Source: Candidatus Nanopelagicales bacterium
GTDB taxonomy: Bacteria > Actinomycetota > Actinomycetes > S36-B12
Assembly: GCA_030827125.1 (NCBI GenBank)
Contig: JAURFD010000008.1
Coordinates: forward strand, 1-64,000
Length of the DNA stretch: 64,000 nucleotides
Reading direction: 5' to 3'
Each line of letters opens with the position of its first letter. The stretch's first letter is position 1. Positions 36,646-57,778 of the stretch are shown here, one piece after another. The notes under the pieces were generated by a model, which saw only the letters and a list, made by a program, of their open reading frames with translations, made no database searches and was not told the origin of the DNA. Position numbers and translations under genes: made by a program.

Positions 36646-38827
36646 GGGGCACCTCCATGACCTCGCGGAGTTTGGCCGCGACCTCTTCCGAGCGAGCGAT
36701 TGCCGCGCGCTCGAGCACCTTGCTGATACTGGGGGAGGCCTCCCCGCCGGTGACCCGCTGCACCGGCTGATCCAGCCAATCGAAGTACCGCCGCTGGATT
36801 TCATCGGCGAGCCAGCCCCCGTAGGACGTGCCGAGTGCGCCCTGTTCGGCGATGAGCACGTTGTTGGTCTTGCGGATGCTCGCCCCGATGGTCTCCCAGT
36901 CGAGGCTGGCTCGATCGAGCCAGCGCAGATCGATCACTTCGGCGTCGACCGAGTCAACTTCACGCACCGCGTCGAGCACGTGATGCGTCATCCCCAGGTA
37001 GCTGAGGATCGTCACATCCTTGCCCTCGCGTCGGATAGCCGCGCTCCCCACGGGGATCTGGAAGTCGAAATCCTCCGCGGGGAGGGGACCGGTCATGGTG
37101 TAGAGATCGACATGTTCGAGGACCAAGACGGGGTCATCGCACGCCAGTGCGGTGTTCATGAGGCCTACATAGTCGAACGGGGTCGATGGGGCCACGATGC
37201 GCCATCCGGGATTGGTCACGAAGACACCGGCCGGATCCATAGAGTGCTGTGAGCCGTATCCCGTGCCCTGGGCGACTTTGCTGCGCAGAACGACGGGCAC
37301 GGCGCCGTCGCCACCGAACATGTGACGAGCCTTGCCGATCTGATTGAACAACTGGTCCGCGGCCACCCACATGAAGTCCGCATACATGAACTCGATCACC
37401 GGTCGGTAGCGCCCGTCGAGGGCCATGCCACCAGCGAGGCCGGTGAAGGCGTTCTCGCTGATGGGCGTCCCCAGGATGCGGTCGGGGAAGCGATCCTTGA
37501 GCCCGCGCGTGGCACCGTTCGTGCCACCGTTCAGTCGATGGATGTCCTCGCCGAGGATGACCACGCGATCATCGGTCTCCATGCGGCGCCCCAGAACACC
37601 GGCGACGGCATCGATGAACTTGCCCTCGACGATCCCTCCGGGCACGTCGTCCGGGGTTGCGGTGCGCGCACCGGCAAGTTCGGAGAGGTCACCACGCACG
37701 CCCACGTCGACGAATGCCGGGTCGGGCCACTCCGACGGCTTGATCCGACGTTCATCCGGCTTGCCCCCGGGCAGAGGCTCGGTCAACTCAGCGCTGACCT
37801 CGGCCATGATCGCCGTCGCAGAATCGAGGAATGCCTGGACCTGGTCGTCGGTGAGGATCTCGCGACGCACAATGTGGGAACGCAATTGAGTCAGTGGGTC
37901 GCGCGCGCGCCACTCCGCTTCCTCCTCCTTCGACCGGTAACGGAAGGCGCTTCCGGGGAAGGGGCCGTTTTGGTGGAAGAACCGGTAGACGTCGGCCTCA
38001 ATGACGGCAGGCCCGCGACCGGAGCGCATGTGCTCGCCGGCCTCGGTCATCGCGAGGTAGACCGCCAGCGGGTCCATGCCATCGACCTTCCAACTCGCGA
38101 TGCCAAATCCCGGACCGCGCGCGGACAGTCGGGGTTCCTTCGTCGCCTCGGAGACGTGGGTGGAAACGGCATACAGGTTGTTCTCGATGAAGAAGCAAAG
38201 GGGAAGGTCCCAGGCGGCGGCGAGATTGAAGGTCTCCAGTGTCGATCCGATGTTCGAGGCGCCGTCGCCGAAGTAGGTCACCGCGACATTGTTCGTCCGT
38301 GCGTGTCGATGCGCCCATGCGGAGCCGGCGGCAAGTGGGACACCGCCACCGACGATGGCGTTGGTGCCGATGGCACCCGCCTCCTCCCACTGCAGATGCA
38401 TGGAGCCGCCGCGTCCGTGGCTGAAGCCTCGATCGAGCCCGCAGATCTCGGCGAGAGTGCTGAGGAGGAGTGCGCGGACCTCGTCGCCAAGTGGCTGCAC
38501 CGGATCGATGCCCTTGGGAGCGATGTGAGCAAGGCCTTTTGCCAGGAACTGGTGGTGACCGCGGTGCGTGCCGTTGACGGTGTCGCCGGGAATCAGCGCG
38601 AGCACTGAGCCGGCAGCGCCGCCCTCCTGGCCGATGCTGGAGTGTGCGGGGCCATGCACCAGGCCTGCCGCAGCAAGGGCGAGCACCTCCTCCTCGAAGG
38701 CGCGGATGAGGGCCACCTGCGCGAGGAGTGCGGTGAGCAGGGCGGGGTCTGCGTCGTCCCAGTCGGCCGCGGTGGTGCTGACCTGGATCCATGGCGCATC
38801 GGGGTACAGGGGAGTGTGCTCAGCCAT
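36638..38827 (-). CDS. 2-oxoacid dehydrogenase E1, fused alpha and beta subunits
   Basis: The 729-residue product joins an E1-alpha (~1-330; TPP motif YFGDGASNIGSTLETFNLAA ending in ENN) to an E1-beta (~390-729; VVILGEDI, GTPISENAFTGLAGGMALDG and VAQGTGYGSQHS). In the family E1 decarboxylates a 2-oxoacid (pyruvate, acetoin-derived or branched-chain) and reductively acylates E2 lipoyl. The substrate here could be the 2-oxoacid produced at the end of the island's pathway. Its promoter region carries the ATTGGATCCAAT palindrome 17 bp upstream of the ATG. Confidence 0.92.
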   Translation of the reverse strand: MAEHTPLYPDAPWIQVSTTAADWDDADPALLTALLAQVALIRAFEEEVLALAAAGLVHGPAHSSIGQEGGAAGSVLALIPGDTVNGTHRGHHQFLAKGLAHIAPKGIDPVQPLGDEVRALLLSTLAEICGLDRGFSHGRGGSMHLQWEEAGAIGTNAIVGGGVPLAAGSAWAHRHARTNNVAVTYFGDGASNIGSTLETFNLAAAWDLPLCFFIENNLYAVSTHVSEATKEPRLSARGPGFGIASWKVDGMDPLAVYLAMTEAGEHMRSGRGPAVIEADVYRFFHQNGPFPGSAFRYRSKEEEAEWRARDPLTQLRSHIVRREILTDDQVQAFLDSATAIMAEVSAELTEPLPGGKPDERRIKPSEWPDPAFVDVGVRGDLSELAGARTATPDDVPGGIVEGKFIDAVAGVLGRRMETDDRVVILGEDIHRLNGGTNGATRGLKDRFPDRILGTPISENAFTGLAGGMALDGRYRPVIEFMYADFMWVAADQLFNQIGKARHMFGGDGAVPVVLRSKVAQGTGYGSQHSMDPAGVFVTNPGWRIVAPSTPFDYVGLMNTALACDDPVLVLEHVDLYTMTGPLPAEDFDFQIPVGSAAIRREGKDVTILSYLGMTHHVLDAVREVDSVDAEVIDLRWLDRASLDWETIGASIRKTNNVLIAEQGALGTSYGGWLADEIQRRYFDWLDQPVQRVTGGEASPSISKVLERAAIARSEEVAAKLREVMEVPRG

Positions 38828-38844
38828 GGGGGAAGACTAGCCAG

Positions 38845-46802: not shown

Positions 46803-46808
46803 TAGGGT
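46803..46808 (+). promoter_or_regulatory. -10 box TAGGGT of a leaderless folD promoter
   Basis: TAGGGT ends 6 nt before ATG 46815 in a 20-bp gap, so folD is insulated from the catabolic operon upstream. Confidence 0.55.
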
Positions 46809-46814
46809 GAGGGC

Positions 46815-47666
46815 ATGACGGCGACCATCCTCGACGGCAAGGCCACGGCCAAGGCTGTTAAGCAGGTACTCACTGATCGCGTTGCGGTCCTCAAAGCCCG
46901 TGGCATCACGCCCGGACTCGCGACGGTTCTCGTGGGTGATGATCCGGGGAGTCACGCCTATGTCGGTGGCAAGCACCGTGACTGCGCCGAGGTAGGGATC
47001 GCGTCCATCCGTGTGGACATGCCTGGTGACTCCACTCAGGCTGACGTCGAGGACGCCGTACGAGCCTTGAACGATGACCCGGCCGTCACCGGATTCATTG
47101 TCCAGCTACCCCTGCCCAAGGGATTGGACAGCAATCACGTTCTTGAACTGATGGATCCGCTGAAGGACGCGGATGGGCTCCACCCGATGAACCTCGGTCG
47201 GCTGGTCCTAGGAATCGAGGCACCGCTTCCGTGCACTCCGCGCGGCATCGTGGAATTGCTCCGAACCTATGACGTACCGATCAATGGTGCCGAGGTGTGC
47301 GTTGTCGGTCGAGGAGTGACGGTGGGTCGCCCCCTCGGTCTACTGCTCACCCGTCGTCAGGAGAACGCCACCGTCACCTTGTGTCATACGGGAACGCGTG
47401 ACATGTCCGCGCACATCGCGCGAGCCGACATCGTCGTCGCCGCTGCCGGTGTCCCGCACTTCATCACCCCGGACATGATCAAGCCGGGTGCGGCACTCGT
47501 CGATGTCGGCATCACGCGGACCGATGCCGGTCTGCTCGGCGACATCGATCCGGCATGCGCGGAGGTCGCGGGTTGGCTGGCACCGATGCCTGGTGGGTCG
47601 GGCCCCATGACGCGGGCCATGCTGCTCGCCAACGTTGTTGAGGCTGCCGAGCGGTCCTCGGGTTGA
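46815..47666 (+). CDS. folD: Methylene-THF dehydrogenase/methenyl-THF cyclohydrolase
   Basis: The 283-residue product makes 10-formyl-THF for purine synthesis. The catalytic Tyr and Lys are in [25 protein letters not shown] and [15 protein letters not shown] are FolD signatures; [17 protein letters not shown] binds NADP. In many actinobacteria folD directly follows purH, and the two are separated here by the ~30-kb island. Confidence 0.97.
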
Positions 47667-47990: not shown

Positions 47991-49307
47991 CTAGAAGTCT
48001 CCACCCCCGAAGCTACCGCCGCCCCCGAAGTCTCCACCCCCGAAGCCACCGCCACGACCGAAGTCGCCGCCGCCGAACGTGGTGCCGTCAGGGCCTGGCT
48101 GTCCCATCGGCGGTGCGGCCTGGGCGGCCGGGGCGGCAAACGTGCTCGCCAACATCGTGCCGATGAACAGTGCCGGCATGATGTCGCTCCAACTGCGGTA
48201 GTAGCCACGCGCGTAGGGAGCGTAGGCCGGGCCGCCCTGCCAATAGGGCACTCGCTGACCTCCCGCGTCGACCTCCCGCGGTGTCGGGCGTCCTCCCGAG
48301 TTAATCGTGTTCTCGCAGGCGGCACAGACCGGCACCGGGTGTGCCGCTCCGCCCTGGGGTGCCCAATCGATGTCGTCGACGCTCGGTCCGTGGCGGGGAT
48401 CGACGAAGCACGGGGCCCGATGCGCCGGCTCCGGTCGGCCATCCATCCGCGCTTCGACACAGGCCAATGCGTATCGACCCTTTTCAAGTTCGCCGGTCGC
48501 CGCGGTGATATCTGCGTCACTGGAGGCCGTGGCTGTGGAGTCGCTCGCCGCCGAGTAGGCGTCCAACGCCTTCTGCAGATCCGCCCGCCCAGCCTCGTCA
48601 AGTCGGCTGTCGGTGAGGTCGAAGGAGCCGAGGCGTTCGCCGAGTTCGGTGACGTCCTCGTTGAGGACCGCGCGTACGGTATCGAGTCGCTGGGCCTGCT
48701 GCTTCTTCCCACGGCGGCGTAGGAAGACAAAGCCGATTCCGCCAAGCACTACAAGGACGACCAGCGGAATGAGGATGGGAATGCCACTCCCGGACGATGT
48801 GGGGGATGACTGTGCCCCGCTACCGGAACTGTTGTTCGCGGCGGCACTGTCGTTGAACTGCGCATCGACACCGGCGACAAAGGCTTGGAGGACGGCGTAC
48901 ACGCCGTTGGCACTGTTCTGCGCGAAGGCGGTGTCCGCGATCTGCCGAACCGAACCGGAGGTGGAACCGGCCCGGAAGGAATTGCCGGCCACCATGGCGT
49001 AGACACCGTCGCGTCCGACCGACGCCTGGATTTCGCTCAGGAGGGCGTCCGCGGAGCCGTAGGCCGTGACGTCCTCCTCGGGCAGGACCGCGATGAAGAT
49101 CGGTAGTCCCGTGTCGGTGATCTGCTGCTGCAGCGCGGTCACCTGACCGGTGGTGAGGCTGAGTTCGGCCACCGGGTCGTTGTAGACAGCCTCGGCGCGC
49201 AGGATGTCGGCGATGGCGTCGATGGTCGCATCCGCGCGGGCTAGGGAGGAGCTACTGAGGATGGCGACGAGTGACAGGAGGGCGAGGACGAAGAGACGGC
49301 GCACCAT
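47991..49307 (-). CDS. TPM-domain membrane protein with Gly-rich C-terminal tail
   Basis: The 438-residue product has a signal peptide (about 1-25, ending SLARA), an extracytoplasmic TPM-like domain (~35-160, with FIAVLPEEDVTAYGSADALL), one TM near the middle (IPILIPLVVLVVLGGIGFVFL), a cytoplasmic helical region with repeated Ala/Glu/Asp that may coil, a Cys pair in PVCAACENTI, and a tail of FGGGDF-type repeats. YgcG/TPM proteins are linked to photosystem repair in plants and are uncharacterised in most bacteria. The Gly-rich tail is encoded by imperfect 12-21-bp tandem repeats at 47996-48080. Confidence 0.78.
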   Translation of the reverse strand: MVRRLFVLALLSLVAILSSSSLARADATIDAIADILRAEAVYNDPVAELSLTTGQVTALQQQITDTGLPIFIAVLPEEDVTAYGSADALLSEIQASVGRDGVYAMVAGNSFRAGSTSGSVRQIADTAFAQNSANGVYAVLQAFVAGVDAQFNDSAAANNSSGSGAQSSPTSSGSGIPILIPLVVLVVLGGIGFVFLRRRGKKQQAQRLDTVRAVLNEDVTELGERLGSFDLTDSRLDEAGRADLQKALDAYSAASDSTATASSDADITAATGELEKGRYALACVEARMDGRPEPAHRAPCFVDPRHGPSVDDIDWAPQGGAAHPVPVCAACENTINSGGRPTPREVDAGGQRVPYWQGGPAYAPYARGYYRSWSDIMPALFIGTMLASTFAAPAAQAAPPMGQPGPDGTTFGGGDFGRGGGFGGGDFGGGGSFGGGDF

Positions 49308-49339
49308 GGATCGACACTACCCCCGATTGACGCGGTCGA

Positions 49340-51094
49340 TCAGTCCTTGATCTCGCAGAGCACCGTGCCCGTGGGGACGGTGGCGCCCACAGCGGCGTCA
49401 AGCCCGGTCACGATCCCCGCCTTGTGGGCCGTAAGGGGCTGCTCCATCTTCATGGCCTCAAGCACCACGATGAGATCGCCTGGTGCGACCTGCTGCCCCT
49501 CTTCGACGGCCACCTTGACCACGGTCCCCTGCATGGGTGCGGCCACCGCATCGCCGGAGGCCGCCGATCCGGAGGATCGATCGCGCTTGCGGCTGGCCTT
49601 CGCCGGCCCGGACTTGTTTGTCGACGCGCCACCGAGGCCGGCGGGCAGCGTGACGGCAAGCCTGCGGCCGTCGACCTCGACCGTCACGGTTTCGCGTCCG
49701 GCAGATACCTCGGGTGCGTCGGCGGTTCCGGTGTAGGGCGGGATCGTGTTGTTGAAGCCGCCCTCGATCCAGCGGGTGTGCACGGTGAAGGGTGCGTCGC
49801 CCTCAGGAGCGAATGCGGGGTCGTCGACGACGGCGCGGTGGAAGGGGATGGCGGTGGCGATGCCTTCGACGACGAACTCCCGCAGCGCGCGTCGGGACCG
49901 CTCTAGTGCCTCCTGCCGGTCGCGTCCGGTGACGATGAGCTTGGCGAGAAGGGAGTCGAAGTTGCCGCCAATGATGTCGCCCTGACCGAAGCCGGCATCG
50001 ACGCGGACCCCGGGACCGGCCGGCTCGACCCACTCGGTGAGGACGCCGGGCGCGGGGAGGAAGCCGCGGCCCGGATCCTCACCGTTGATACGGAACTCGA
50101 TGCTGTGTCCGCGCAGCACCGGGTCGTCATAGTCGATGACCCCACCGTCGGCGATGCGGAACTGCTCTCGGACCAGGTCGATGCCAGCGACCTCCTCGGA
50201 GACCGGATGCTCCACCTGCAGTCGGGTGTTGACCTCGAGGAACGAGATGGTGCCGTCTTCACCGACGAGGAATTCGCACGTGCCAGCGTTGTAATAGCCG
50301 GCTTCCTTGATGATGGCCTTCGAGGCCGAGTACAGGGCGTCGACCTGTTCATCGGAAAGGAAAGGCGCCGGAGCTTCCTCGACCAATTTTTGGTGCCGAC
50401 GCTGCAATGAACAGTCACGCGTCGAGACCACCACGACATTGCCGTGCTGATCGGCCAAGACCTGTGTCTCGACATGGCGTGGGTTGTCCAGGTAGCGCTC
50501 GACGAAGCACTCGCCACGACCAAACGCGGCCACGGCCTCGCGCACGGCAGAGTCGTAGAGCTCGGGGATCTCTTCCAGGGTGCGGGCGACCTTGAGGCCG
50601 CGCCCGCCGCCACCAAAGGCCGCCTTGATCGCCACCGGTAAACCGTGCTCCTGGGCGAAGGCGACGACCTCGTCGGCTCCGGTTACCGGATCGGGCGTAC
50701 CGGGGACCTGTGGGGCTCCCGCGCGCGCCGCGATGTGTCGGGCGGAGACCTTGTCACCGAGTGATCGGATCGCTTCCGGTGGCGGTCCGATCCAGGTCAG
50801 CCCGGCGTCGATGACCGCCTGGGCGAAGTCGGCGTTTTCGGAGAGGAACCCGTAGCCGGGGTGCACGGCGTCGGCTCCGGCCCGGCGAGCCGCGTCGAGC
50901 AACTTGGCAATGTCAAGGTAGGTCTCCGCCGCGGTGGCGCCACCAAGCGCGTACGCCTCGTCAGCCATGCGGACGTGCAGGGCCTCGCGGTCGGGGTCGG
51001 CGTACACCGCCACGGAGGTCAGGCCGGCATCTCGGCAGGCGCGGGCAACACGTACGGCGATCTCGCCTCGATTGGCGATGAGGACCTTCTGCAC
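49340..51094 (-). CDS. Acyl-CoA carboxylase alpha subunit (biotin carboxylase plus biotin carrier)
   Basis: The 584-residue product begins [20 protein letters not shown]. The biotin carboxylase domain (~1-450) has the ATP-grasp glycine loop [12 protein letters not shown] and [16 protein letters not shown]. The C-terminal biotinyl domain carries the biotinylated Lys in [12 protein letters not shown] (~547). It matches the actinobacterial AccA3/PccA type, which serves both acetyl- and propionyl-CoA carboxylases. GTG 51094 is chosen over a much longer upstream frame because TAGACT ends 7 nt before it. It works with the epsilon and beta subunits at 51.8-53.6 kb; maf lies between. Confidence 0.95.
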
Positions 51095-51101
51095 GCGCTG
51101 C

Positions 51102-51107
51102 AGTCTA
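51102..51107 (-). promoter_or_regulatory. -10 box TAGACT of a leaderless promoter for the carboxylase alpha subunit
   Basis: On the minus strand TAGACT ends 7 nt before GTG 51094. Confidence 0.55.
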
Positions 51108-51134
51108 GGGACCCCCCTCTGGCAAGGTGTGGGC

Positions 51135-51752
51135 ATGTCGCAACTGCCCCTGATCCTCGCCTCGGCCTCGCCGTCCCGGCGACGACTGCTCGAGCAGGCT
51201 GGGCTTGCCCCCCGCGTCTTGGTCAGCGGCGTGGATGAGGAGTCCATCGAGGAGCGGATGCGGCAGCAGCCGGTGCCGGAGGTGGCCCTTGCGCTCGCCC
51301 GGGCCAAGGCGGAAGCCGTCGTGACTACGGACCCGCTGCCGGAGGGCGCGCTTGTGCTCGGCTGCGACTCCATCTTCGAGGTCGACGGCGTACGGCTGGG
51401 CAAACCACCGACACCGGAGGAGGCCATGAGGCGCTGGCAGCGCATGCGTGGGCGACCCGGATTCCTGCACACGGGTCACTGGCTGATGGACACTGCGTCC
51501 GGTCGCGCTGTCGGCGAAGCGGTCACGACCGTGGTGCATATGGTGGACGCACCGGACGATGAGATCCGCGCCTACATCGCTACCGGCGAGCCGCTCAAGG
51601 TTGCCGGGGGATTCACCCTGGATGACCTCGGAGCTCCGTTTGTCGCCGGTATTGAGGGTGACCCCGGCAATGTCATCGGAGTTTCCCTGCCCGCCGTTCG
51701 CCGACTCGCGGGCGAACTCGGTCACCCGTGGCCGAAGGTCGTCGGCTGGTAA
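51135..51752 (+). CDS. maf: Maf-like nucleotide pyrophosphatase
   Basis: The 205-residue product begins with the Maf signature [18 protein letters not shown] and has the catalytic region [15 protein letters not shown] and [18 protein letters not shown]. Maf proteins hydrolyse modified or canonical nucleoside triphosphates (dTTP/UTP type). ATG 51135 is 40 bp from the divergent carboxylase gene; CAAGGT ending 6 nt before it may be a weak leaderless -10 box. Conserved beside acyl-CoA carboxylase genes in actinobacteria. Confidence 0.95.
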
Positions 51753-51771: not shown

Positions 51772-51981
51772 TCAGCGGGGCAATGACGAGGCGCGCCAGG
51801 CGCCCGGGCCGGAGCCGAGCCGCGGTCGCGTCTGGCGGGCCGGCAGCGCCCATAGGCTTCGGGGCTTGCGTGCCGGTGGGTCGATCGCGGCACGCAGGCT
51901 TGCCACGGCCGCGACGACCGCAGCAACTTCGGCCGGTGTCGCGGGTCCGTGATTGACGATCGGCTCGTCGGCGTCGCTCAT
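51772..51981 (-). CDS. Acyl-CoA carboxylase epsilon subunit (AccE-like)
   Basis: This 69-residue product starts [21 protein letters not shown] conserved helix ([15 protein letters not shown]) and a basic, Trp-containing C-terminus ([24 protein letters not shown]) are typical of actinobacterial AccE, which stabilises the alpha-beta carboxylase complex. It overlaps the beta-subunit stop by 4 nt (ATGA), so it is translationally coupled. Its stop is 19 bp from the convergent maf stop. Confidence 0.88.
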
Positions 51982-53561
51982 AGCGGGATATTGCCGTGCT
52001 TCTTGGGCGGGCGGCTGGCGCGCTTGGTGCGCAGCGCCCGCAGGGCTCGCACGATCATCGGTCGCGTTTCCTCGGGGAGGATGACGCGGTCGATGTAGCC
52101 CCGCTCGGCGGCGACGTAGGGATTGGCCAGGGTTGCCTCGTACTCCTCGATGAGCCGAGCACGCTCGGCCTCGGGATCCGCGGCGTTGGCGAGTTCTTGG
52201 CGATAAAGGATGTTGACGGCACCCTGCGCGCCCATGACCGCGATCTGCGCGGTGGGCCACGCGAGGTTGATGTCAGCACCGAGGTGCTTGGAGCCCATGA
52301 CGTCGTAGGCGCCGCCGTAGGCCTTGCGCGTGATGACGGTGACGAGCGGGACCGTGGCCTCGGCGTAGGCGTAGATGAGCTTGGCGCCGCGTCGGATGAT
52401 GCCGTCCCATTCCTGGTCGGTGCCGGGGAGGAAGCCGGGGACGTCCACGAAGGTGAGGACGGGGACGTTGAAGGCATCGCACGTGCGGACGAAGCGAGCG
52501 GCCTTCTCCGAGGCTTCGATATCGAGCGTGCCGGCGAACTGCATCGGCTGATTGGCCACGACGCCGACGGGGCGACCCTCGACACGACCGAATCCGCAGA
52601 TGATGTTGGGCGCGAAGAGCGGCTGCACCTCGAGGAACTCGTCGTCATCGAGGACGTGCTCAATGACCCGGTGCATGTCGTAGGGCTGGTTGGGTGAATC
52701 TGGGATCAGCGTGTTGAGTTCGCGGTCGTGCTCGCTGATGTCCAGGTCCGCCTCCACGTCGTACGTCGGCGGCTCGTCGAGGTTGTTGCTCGGCAGGTAG
52801 GACAGGAGCGCGCGCACGTAGTCGAACGCGTCGGACTCATCGTCGGCCATGTAGTGGGCGACACCGGATTTGGTGTTGTGGGTCCGGGCGCCGCCGAGCT
52901 CTTCGAAGGGGACGTCTTCGCCGGTGACCGTCTTGATGACATCCGGGCCGGTGATGAACATGTGCGAGGTCTTGTCCACCATGACGATGAAGTCGGTGAT
53001 GGCAGGGGAGTAGACGGCCCCACCCGCGCACGGACCCATGATCAGCGAGATTTGCGGGATGACGCCGGAGGCCTGCACGTTGCGATTGAAGATCTCGCCG
53101 TAGAGGCCGAGTGACACGACCCCCTCTTGGATGCGTGCACCACCGGAGTCGTTGAGCCCGATGATGGGGCAGCCGGTCTTGAGCGCGAGATCCATGACCT
53201 TGACGATCTTCTCGCCGAACACTTCACCGAGGGACCCACCGAACACGGTGAAGTCCTGGGCGAAGACGCAGACCGGTCGACCGTCGACGGTGCCGTAGCC
53301 GGTGATGACGCCGTCGCCGTACGGCCGACTCTTGTCGAGGCCGAAGTTGTGTGAGCGGTGACGGGCGAGACCGTCGAGTTGTTGGAACGAGCCCGGATCG
53401 AGGAAGGCCTCGATGCGTTCCATCGCGGTGAGCTTGCCCTTCGCGTGCTGCTTATCGATCGCCGCCTGGCGCCGCCCGGCCGCTTCCGCGCGACGCTGAA
53501 GGAGTTCATCGGCCTTCTCGGCGGTGGTGTGTGGCGCATTCGCCGCGGGAGTCGAGGTCAC
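51978..53561 (-). CDS. pccB: Acyl-CoA (propionyl-CoA type) carboxylase beta subunit
   Basis: The 527-residue carboxyltransferase has both crotonase-like halves: [18 protein letters not shown] and [20 protein letters not shown] in the first, and [19 protein letters not shown] with [19 protein letters not shown] in the second. It resembles AccD5/PccB, which make methylmalonyl-CoA from propionyl-CoA; acetyl-CoA use cannot be excluded. Starts with a leaderless GTG from the bidirectional promoter shared with birA. Confidence 0.95.
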
Positions 53562-53578
53562 CGTCGTACCTTAGCCGG
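53562..53578. promoter_or_regulatory. Bidirectional leaderless promoter (pccB/birA) with overlapping -10 boxes
   Basis: Only 17 bp separate two divergent GTG starts. TACCTT (53567-53572) ends 6 nt before birA GTG 53579; on the other strand TAAGGT (53573-53568) ends 6 nt before the carboxylase GTG at 53561. The boxes share five base pairs (union TACCTTA), so only one direction can be open at a time. Confidence 0.7.
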
Positions 53579-54391
53579 GTGAGCGAGGACTTCGGCGCGG
53601 CCCGGGAACGTCGGCCGCTGAGCGAACTGCCGCCCCTGCTCGGTTGGGAGCCGTGGCCCCCGCCGAGAATCGTGGCGACGACCGGCTCCACGATGATCGA
53701 CGTCGAGCGGTTGGCCGGGCAGGGGGCCCCGGAGGGCTCGGTGGTGGTCGCGGAGGAGCAGACCGCGGGCAGGGGCCGTCGGGGCCGGCACTGGGAGTCG
53801 CCGCAGTACGCCGGCCTCTGGATGAGCCTGTTGCTGCGACCGGAGCGCTCTATCGATCGCGTCGGTTGGCTGCCGCTGGTGGTCGGTGTGGGGGTCGTCC
53901 GAGCCCTGCGTGCGGTCGCCGGCGTCGATGTTCGACTGAAGTGGCCCAATGACGTGGTTGTCGTGCGCGACGGTGAGGTCGGGAAGGTGGCCGGACTGCT
54001 CGCCGAGCGGCTCGCGGACGGGGCGGTCATCATCGGACTGGGCGTCAATGTCTCCCAAGAGGTGGACGAACTCCCGCTCGGCGGGACGTCGTTACAGCGT
54101 GAGGGGGCGCGGGCGTCTCGTGAGGATGTCCTTGCGGGGGTACTCGCCGAAGTAGCCAGTGCCTACCGATCCTGGCGCGATGGGGTGGATTTCGCACCCC
54201 TCTATGCCGAATTCTCGGCGACGATCGGTCGGCGAGTCCGAGTGCAAAGACCCGGTGGTGACGTCGTCGGCGTTGCTGCGGCCCTGGGTCACGGTGGGGA
54301 GCTCGTGGTGGTGGATGACGAAGGGGGCGAATACGCAATCACGGCGGGTGATGTGGTGCATCTGCGTCCCGCCAACGAGGCATTCGGCTGA
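53579..54391 (+). CDS. birA: Biotin-[acetyl-CoA-carboxylase] ligase (class I, no DNA-binding domain)
   Basis: The 270-residue product attaches biotin to the carboxylase alpha subunit encoded 2.5 kb away. It has the ligase motifs TAGRGRRGRHWES and VDVRLKWPNDVVV, KVAGLLAERL and GLGVNVSQ, with a small C-terminal SH3-like domain. There is no N-terminal helix-turn-helix, so it is a monofunctional ligase. GTG 53579 is set by the -10 box TACCTT 6 nt upstream. Confidence 0.95.
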   Translation: MSEDFGAARERRPLSELPPLLGWEPWPPPRIVATTGSTMIDVERLAGQGAPEGSVVVAEEQTAGRGRRGRHWESPQYAGLWMSLLLRPERSIDRVGWLPLVVGVGVVRALRAVAGVDVRLKWPNDVVVVRDGEVGKVAGLLAERLADGAVIIGLGVNVSQEVDELPLGGTSLQREGARASREDVLAGVLAEVASAYRSWRDGVDFAPLYAEFSATIGRRVRVQRPGGDVVGVAAALGHGGELVVVDDEGGEYAITAGDVVHLRPANEAFG

Positions 54392-56593: not shown

Positions 56594-56599
56594 TAGGGT
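56594..56599 (+). promoter_or_regulatory. -10 box TAGGGT of a leaderless purK promoter
   Basis: TAGGGT ends 6 nt before GTG 56606. Confidence 0.55.
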
Positions 56600-56605
56600 C
56601 GCGCT

Positions 56606-57778
56606 GTGAATCCGGTCACGGGTGCTCCGCGCGTTGGTCTCGTCGGAGGTGGACAACTCGCCCGAATGACCGCGGCTCCGGCGGCCGCCCTCGGTGTGGA
56701 CCTGCGTCTCCTCGCGACGGATCGCGGGGAGTCCGCCGCCCAGGTCATTCCCGACGTCGTCTTCGGTAGCCATACCGACCTCGCGGCCCTCACCGCCTTG
56801 GCGGAGGGGTGCTCGGTCATCACCTTCGACCACGAGCACGTGCCCCCGGCCCATCTGCGGGCCCTGGAAACAGCGGGGATCGGCGTACAGCCGAGTAGCG
56901 CCGCACTTGTGCACGCGCAGGACAAGATCACCATGCGTGAGGCCATCGAAGCGGCCGGACTGCCAACGCCTGCGTGGCGGCACGACTTCACTGTCGATGA
57001 TCTCCGCGGTGTGGGTGATGCGCTGGGCTGGCCGCTCGTGCTCAAGGTGTCGCGCGGGGGGTACGACGGTCGCGGCGTGTGGGTGGTCGAGGACGAGGCG
57101 CGGGCGCGCACGGTCATGGAGTCGACCGAACTGGTCCATGGGGCGGCGTGGCTGGCGGAGGAACTTGTGCCCTTCACGCGCGAACTCGCGGCTCAGGTCG
57201 CACGGTCACCGTCCGGTCAAGCAGTCGCCTACCCGGTAGTGCGCACCGTGCAGGTCGACGGGATGTGTTCCGAGGTCGTCGCGCCGTGTCCGGACCTACC
57301 CGAGGCGAAAGCCCTCGAGGCACAGCAGATCGCCTTGCGCGTTGCCGAAGCCCTAGGCGTCACCGGGATGCTCGCGGTGGAGCTCTTCGATGCGCCGCAG
57401 GGCCTGCTGATCAATGAACTGGCGATGCGGCCCCACAATTCCGGGCATTGGACGATCGACGGTGCCGTCACAAGCCAGTTCGAGAACCACCTGCGCGCGG
57501 TCCTTGATCTCCCCCTGGGCGACCCGCGATCGACGGCGCAGTGGTCGGTGATGGTCAACGTCGTCGGCCCACGCGATATCGAAGGACTACCTCCGCTGAC
57601 CGATGCCTTCCGTCACGTGATGGCGCGTGACCCCGGTGTGCATGTACATCTGTACGGCAAGTCCCTGCGCCCCGGACGCAAACTTGGCCACGTCACAGTG
57701 GTCTCGGACGACCTTGCTGACGCCCTCACCCGGGCACATCATGCGGCCGACTACCTCATGGGAGTGATCAATGAGTAA
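56606..57778 (+). CDS. purK: 5-(carboxyamino)imidazole ribonucleotide synthase
   Basis: The 390-residue ATP-grasp enzyme carboxylates AIR to N5-CAIR in purine synthesis. It has [55 protein letters not shown] and [17 protein letters not shown], all PurK motifs. It overlaps purE by 8 nt. Confidence 0.96.

Follow-up and report, generated by a model that had tools for sequence, protein, structure and literature searches.

The window analysed here, a stretch of 64,000 nucleotides from a Candidatus Nanopelagicales bacterium, carries a birA gene and the gene for the beta subunit of an acyl-CoA carboxylase in divergent orientation, with 17 bp between their two GTG start codons. The features of this junction, together with the gene for the carboxylase alpha subunit, are listed by position in the window:

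49340..51094, reverse strand: alpha subunit of the carboxylase (biotin carboxylase plus biotin carrier domain; PF02786, PF00289, PF02785, PF00364)
51102..51107, reverse strand: distinct predicted −10 box TAGACT of leaderless type for the alpha subunit, with its GTG (51094) 7 nt away; read from the sequence
51978..53561, reverse strand: carboxyltransferase (beta) subunit of the acyl-CoA carboxylase, GTG start (PF01039 at 37-525, TIGR01117)
53562..53578, no strand: 17-bp intergenic region, the entire spacer separating both start codons, read from the sequence
53567..53572, forward strand: predicted −10 box TACCTT for birA, with predicted transcription start 53579 (TANNNT + 6 nt + GTG)
53567..53573, both strands: putative shared symmetric −10 heptamer TACCTTA / TAAGGTA, from the sequence and its conservation in relatives
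53568..53573, reverse strand: predicted −10 box TAAGGT for the carboxylase beta gene, with predicted transcription start 53561 (TANNNT + 6 nt + GTG)
53579..54391, forward strand: birA, biotin-protein ligase without a DNA-binding domain (group I type), GTG start (TIGR00121, PF03099, PF02237)

The birA product matches TIGR00121 over residues 33-261 (E = 2e-43) and the carboxylase beta product matches PF01039 (E = 7e-204). For the 270-residue BirA, the best bifunctional-BirA model aligns only from profile position 80 onward, and a Pfam search of the protein gave no helix-turn-helix match. A small open reading frame downstream of the carboxylase beta gene is likely its epsilon subunit. The original prediction had tied the two divergent genes together through biotinylation of the carboxylase by BirA. 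A functional link does exist, although it is less tight than first proposed: the substrate of BirA is the alpha subunit, which holds the biotin carrier domain (49340-51094), and not the beta subunit with the shared promoter, and the genes for the two subunits are set apart by a Maf gene on the opposite strand. The alpha subunit (GTG 51094, reverse strand) and Maf (ATG 51135, forward strand) make up a further close divergent pair at 51092-51137 of the window, in which the Maf start has only CAAGGT 6 nt before its ATG, compared with the leaderless-type TAGACT of the alpha subunit.

Read on the forward strand, the spacer (CGTCG TACCTTA GCCGG) is bounded by CAC at 53559-53561, the carboxylase beta start on the reverse strand, and by GTG at 53579-53581, the birA start. 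Its two boxes, TACCTT and TAAGGT, overlap by five bases (53568-53572), and each is separated from its own GTG by 6 nt. The spacer length, boxes, gaps and shared bases are exactly as originally described, and the choice of start codons is backed by identical spacing in 10 of 10 members of the genus. Both sides of the junction have the sequence arrangement of leaderless genes, with TANNNT 6–8 nt before an ATG or GTG and no Shine–Dalgarno sequence in between; if both mRNAs are leaderless, the predicted starts at 53579 and 53561 are 18 bp apart. The opposite-strand −10 elements also overlap with the reciprocal pairing that marks bidirectional promoters: position 53568 is −11A of the forward box opposite −7T of the reverse box, and position 53572 is −7T of the forward box opposite −11A of the reverse box. 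A −18T is absent from the junction in both directions, and C is found at −18 instead, since the two starts are GTG; were they ATG in such a geometry, the start codon of the neighbour would supply the −18T. A scan for sigma-70 −35/−10 promoters found no −35-like hexamer at the junction.

In the known bidirectional promoters built on a symmetric −10 element (Warman, Grainger, Wade and colleagues; PMC12825309, PMC10268837), opposite-strand starts lie 7–25 bp apart, most commonly 18 bp, and −7T and −11A are reciprocally paired; E. coli bioA/bioB, also a biotin locus, is among those tested. The junction resembles them in its single −10 element, which reads in both directions, in the 18 bp between its predicted starts, in the −7T/−11A pairing and in having divergent, functionally linked genes. 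It differs in that both mRNAs are predicted to be leaderless, in that the whole intergenic region is 17 bp and in that a −35 element and −18T are absent, the latter being frequent and stimulatory but not obligatory at bidirectional promoters of Salmonella and E. coli (PMC10268837); at this junction, moreover, conservation was examined across a whole class. Leaderless genes with a TANNNT −10 element are known from Mycobacterium tuberculosis (PMC3898074), the promoters of which have no conserved −35 (PMC3898074), and also from Deinococcus (PMC12340547). With the leaderless genes of Actinobacteria such as M. tuberculosis the junction shares TANNNT, the 6–8-nt distance, a predicted first codon of ATG or GTG and the lack of a −35, and it differs from them in placing two such units head to head on five common bases. 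A literature search, thin on subscription journals, returned no paper on a divergent birA/carboxylase promoter or on doubly leaderless bidirectional promoters. Both the promoter class and leaderless genes are already known, and the junction is an unusually well conserved new example.

The combined pattern CAYN5TANNNTAN5RTG has one match in the window, with 0.00 expected, and the double pattern occurs at two places in the 2.6-Mb genome. Across 11 genomes of the genus, however, a backwards control pattern was as frequent as the real double pattern (0–2 sites per genome each). The lone genome-wide match is therefore not significant by itself, and we dropped a genome-wide excess as evidence. An extra A follows TANNNT in just 11 of the 457 TANNNT-N6-RTG sites of the genome, and four of these 11 belong to the two double sites. 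As for single boxes, the genome has 2.4 times as many TANNNT-N6-ATG sites as matches to the backwards control, and TANNNT-N6-GTG shows no enrichment over its control. Within the window, TANNNT lies exactly 6 nt before an ATG or GTG at 15 places (9.4 expected), for example at 38825-38839, 46803-46817, 49305-49319 and 56594-56608, in line with leaderless genes being common in the source organism. The other double site of the genome, TACGGTA (L032:1501-1523; contig C6:27805-27827), lies between a MarR-like regulator with a leaderless-type GTG and an MMPL-type transporter, both named from their translations; the likely ATG of the transporter is farther from TACGGTA, behind a GGAG site. A different arrangement is found at G000:C22:132957-132990, where the leaderless-type boxes TAGGCT and TAGCCT stand head to head, 4 bp apart, between two GTG codons.

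The main evidence comes from the same junction in relatives. A junction that is not conserved in close relatives had been named at the outset as one of the outcomes that would refute the idea; this outcome did not occur, and TAnnnTA is present in all 69 divergent birA/carboxylase junctions compared in the family of the source organism, which represent 14 genera. Box positions T1, A2, C3, T6 and A7 are invariant among these 69, and the DNA outside the box and the birA start is close to background conservation. The BirA proteins of the family are only ~33–72% identical to that of the window, yet the box is kept throughout. In the genus itself, both starts lie 6–9 nt from one box in 10 of 10 genomes, and birA is leaderless-type in 64 of the 69 family junctions. 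The exact heptamer TACCTTA occurs in 49 of the 64 leaderless-type junctions of family f1, and GCG and GCC tend to flank it. Judged from these sequences, the retention of the box at the same junction in relative after relative is beyond chance.

For the wider class, Actinomycetes, we used a sample of 144 genomes with birA next to the carboxylase beta gene in divergent orientation. TANNNT lies 5–8 nt before the birA start in 124 of the 144 junctions (9.1 in shuffled junctions), and TANNNTA is found at leaderless spacing to birA in 104 (~1.5 in shuffled junctions). In collapsed counts, TANNNTA is present in 41 of 57 genera with a leaderless-type birA box and in 17 of 26 families; among its carriers are Blastococcus sp. 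CCUG 61487 (L243), where TAGCGTA precedes a GTG at leaderless spacing, and a metagenome-assembled genome of Candidatus Nanopelagicales (L250). The final A of the heptamer serves only the opposite-strand −10 element, so its conservation bears on the carboxylase direction. The middle bases vary across the class (CCT, CTT, CCC, CTG, CGG, GCG, GCC, AGG, CAT and TGT) and the outer TA...TA is constant. One box has leaderless-type genes on both sides in family f26 (8 of 8 genomes) and family f18 (six of eight genomes), where, as in some others, both starts lie 6–9 nt from it; some genomes of f13, f15 and f29 also have this arrangement. About one-quarter of the class junctions are without the shared box and have separate boxes instead (families f8, f17, f20, f21, f27 and a few others). 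Conservation of this kind across the class gives good support to the predicted promoter as originally proposed, bidirectional and leaderless with −10 boxes that overlap. In a phylum-wide sample, the ~1.5-kb flanks of the 30 best BirA matches contained no carboxylase beta gene, and from these sequences the divergent arrangement looks limited to the class.

Could the reverse-strand TAAGGT be the Shine–Dalgarno sequence of the carboxylase gene, leaving TACCTT as the sole promoter of the junction and placing the carboxylase promoter inside birA? In the genus, AAGG stands 7 nt before the GTG, a normal Shine–Dalgarno distance, and it could double there as a weak ribosome site. In most family members outside the genus (13 other genera), however, the carboxylase start is displaced from the box, giving predicted leaders of 11 to 70 nt that mostly have an AGGAGG-type Shine–Dalgarno sequence downstream of the predicted transcription start; in genus g5 the predicted carboxylase mRNA starts exactly with AGGAGG. 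The box is thus retained upstream of a leader that has its own Shine–Dalgarno sequence, which argues for a −10 element and not a ribosome site. The boxes of other families (TAGCGTA, TACGGTA, TAGCCTA and TACCCTA) read TACGCT, TACCGT, TAGGCT and TAGGGT on the carboxylase side, all of good −10 form and without an AAGG-type Shine–Dalgarno sequence; in f18, f26 and others, the reverse-strand TACGCT or TACCGT lies at a similar distance of 6–8 nt. The persistence of the box in relatives with their own Shine–Dalgarno sequence led us to reject this reading as a general explanation, and we consider it highly improbable. It is also very unlikely that the box is conserved as an operator, be it for BirA, a different biotin repressor or some other regulator. 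Such an operator would account for middle bases that are less free in family f1 than TANNNT demands and for the recurrent GCG and GCC flanks. At E. coli bioA/bioB, divergent biotin-related genes with overlapping start regions are repressed from an operator bound by a BirA with a helix-turn-helix. The BirA encoded at the junction, unlike that of E. coli, is without the N-terminal DNA-binding domain, on which ground we reject self-repression; furthermore, the heptamer flanks form no inverted repeat, and across the class it is TA...TA that is constant and not the middle bases. As to a chance TA-rich patch in a short spacer, the frequency of the backwards control is the one observation in its favour; the conservation at the same place in all 69 family junctions, despite the divergence of BirA, and the excess over shuffled class junctions rule it out for practical purposes.

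A remaining question is what the overlap does. The original prediction held that it makes the two polymerases compete and so fixes the ratio of birA to carboxylase mRNA with no regulator, which would explain the conservation of the box. It is established for bidirectional promoters that polymerases facing in opposite directions exclude each other (PMC12825309), and competition is seen at those of E. coli, but only once the activity of one direction is raised strongly. At all five E. coli bidirectional promoters tested, basal activity was too low for competition, and mutations that weakened one direction left the other no stronger. Further evidence from the junctions themselves speaks against a fixed ratio. 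In most family members outside the genus, only the carboxylase has a strong Shine–Dalgarno sequence, which allows the ratio of the two proteins to shift with the box unchanged; a promoter-like box of its own, TAGACT, precedes the gene for the alpha subunit, which accepts the biotin; and the class junctions with separate boxes do without the overlap. We therefore do not uphold this part of the prediction, and regard competition as an unlikely reason for the conservation of the box. A related idea, which we also hold to be unlikely, is that the promoter was retained at this junction through much of the diversification of Actinomycetes since polymerase exclusion reduces noise or keeps BirA and carboxylase expression proportionate; in the doubly leaderless forms, the start codons would each supply, with their first base pair, the −18 position of the opposing promoter.

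TACCTTA is very probably the shared −10 element of a bidirectional promoter of the SigA/sigma-70 type, used by polymerase in two exclusive orientations to make two leaderless mRNAs in amounts that are not set by competition. The gene identities, the geometry, the conservation and the persistence of the box beside a leader with a Shine–Dalgarno sequence are established; we infer where transcription starts, that it runs in both directions, that polymerases exclude each other at TACCTTA and what the arrangement is good for. RNA polymerase would bind the heptamer in either of two mutually exclusive orientations, both melting the same A–T pairs, as −11 of one direction partners −7 of the other. Transcription would begin at the first base of each GTG, 18 bp apart, and the predicted leaderless mRNAs would encode birA to the right and the carboxylase beta subunit with the small downstream open reading frame to the left. 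Such a promoter would probably be of benefit by keeping two housekeeping genes constantly co-expressed from very little DNA, with output levels presumably set by promoter strength in each direction and by translation initiation. That translation signals on one side differ among genera next to a nearly unchanged box points to translation as the tuning step in the family.

To our knowledge, most of what is known about bidirectional promoters comes from mapping start sites in a handful of species. On the question whether selection maintains their symmetry, the birA/carboxylase junctions offer a natural series, in which 69 family members and more than 100 class members hold TA...TA while middle bases, leader and Shine–Dalgarno sequence change. 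This series makes the purpose of promoter symmetry directly testable, and the 17-bp element is small enough for full mutation.

Two further arrangements were seen among the class junctions. In family f32 (L141, L155 and L175), the −10 boxes stand back to back with only a common TA (A NNN TA NNN T), and both genes are leaderless-type. Streptomyces junctions (L185-L254) are longer, at ~220–480 bp, and have a conserved symmetric TAGCGTA, TAGAGTA or TAGGGTA away from birA and a separate TANNNT box for birA itself, in most cases 7 nt before an ATG.
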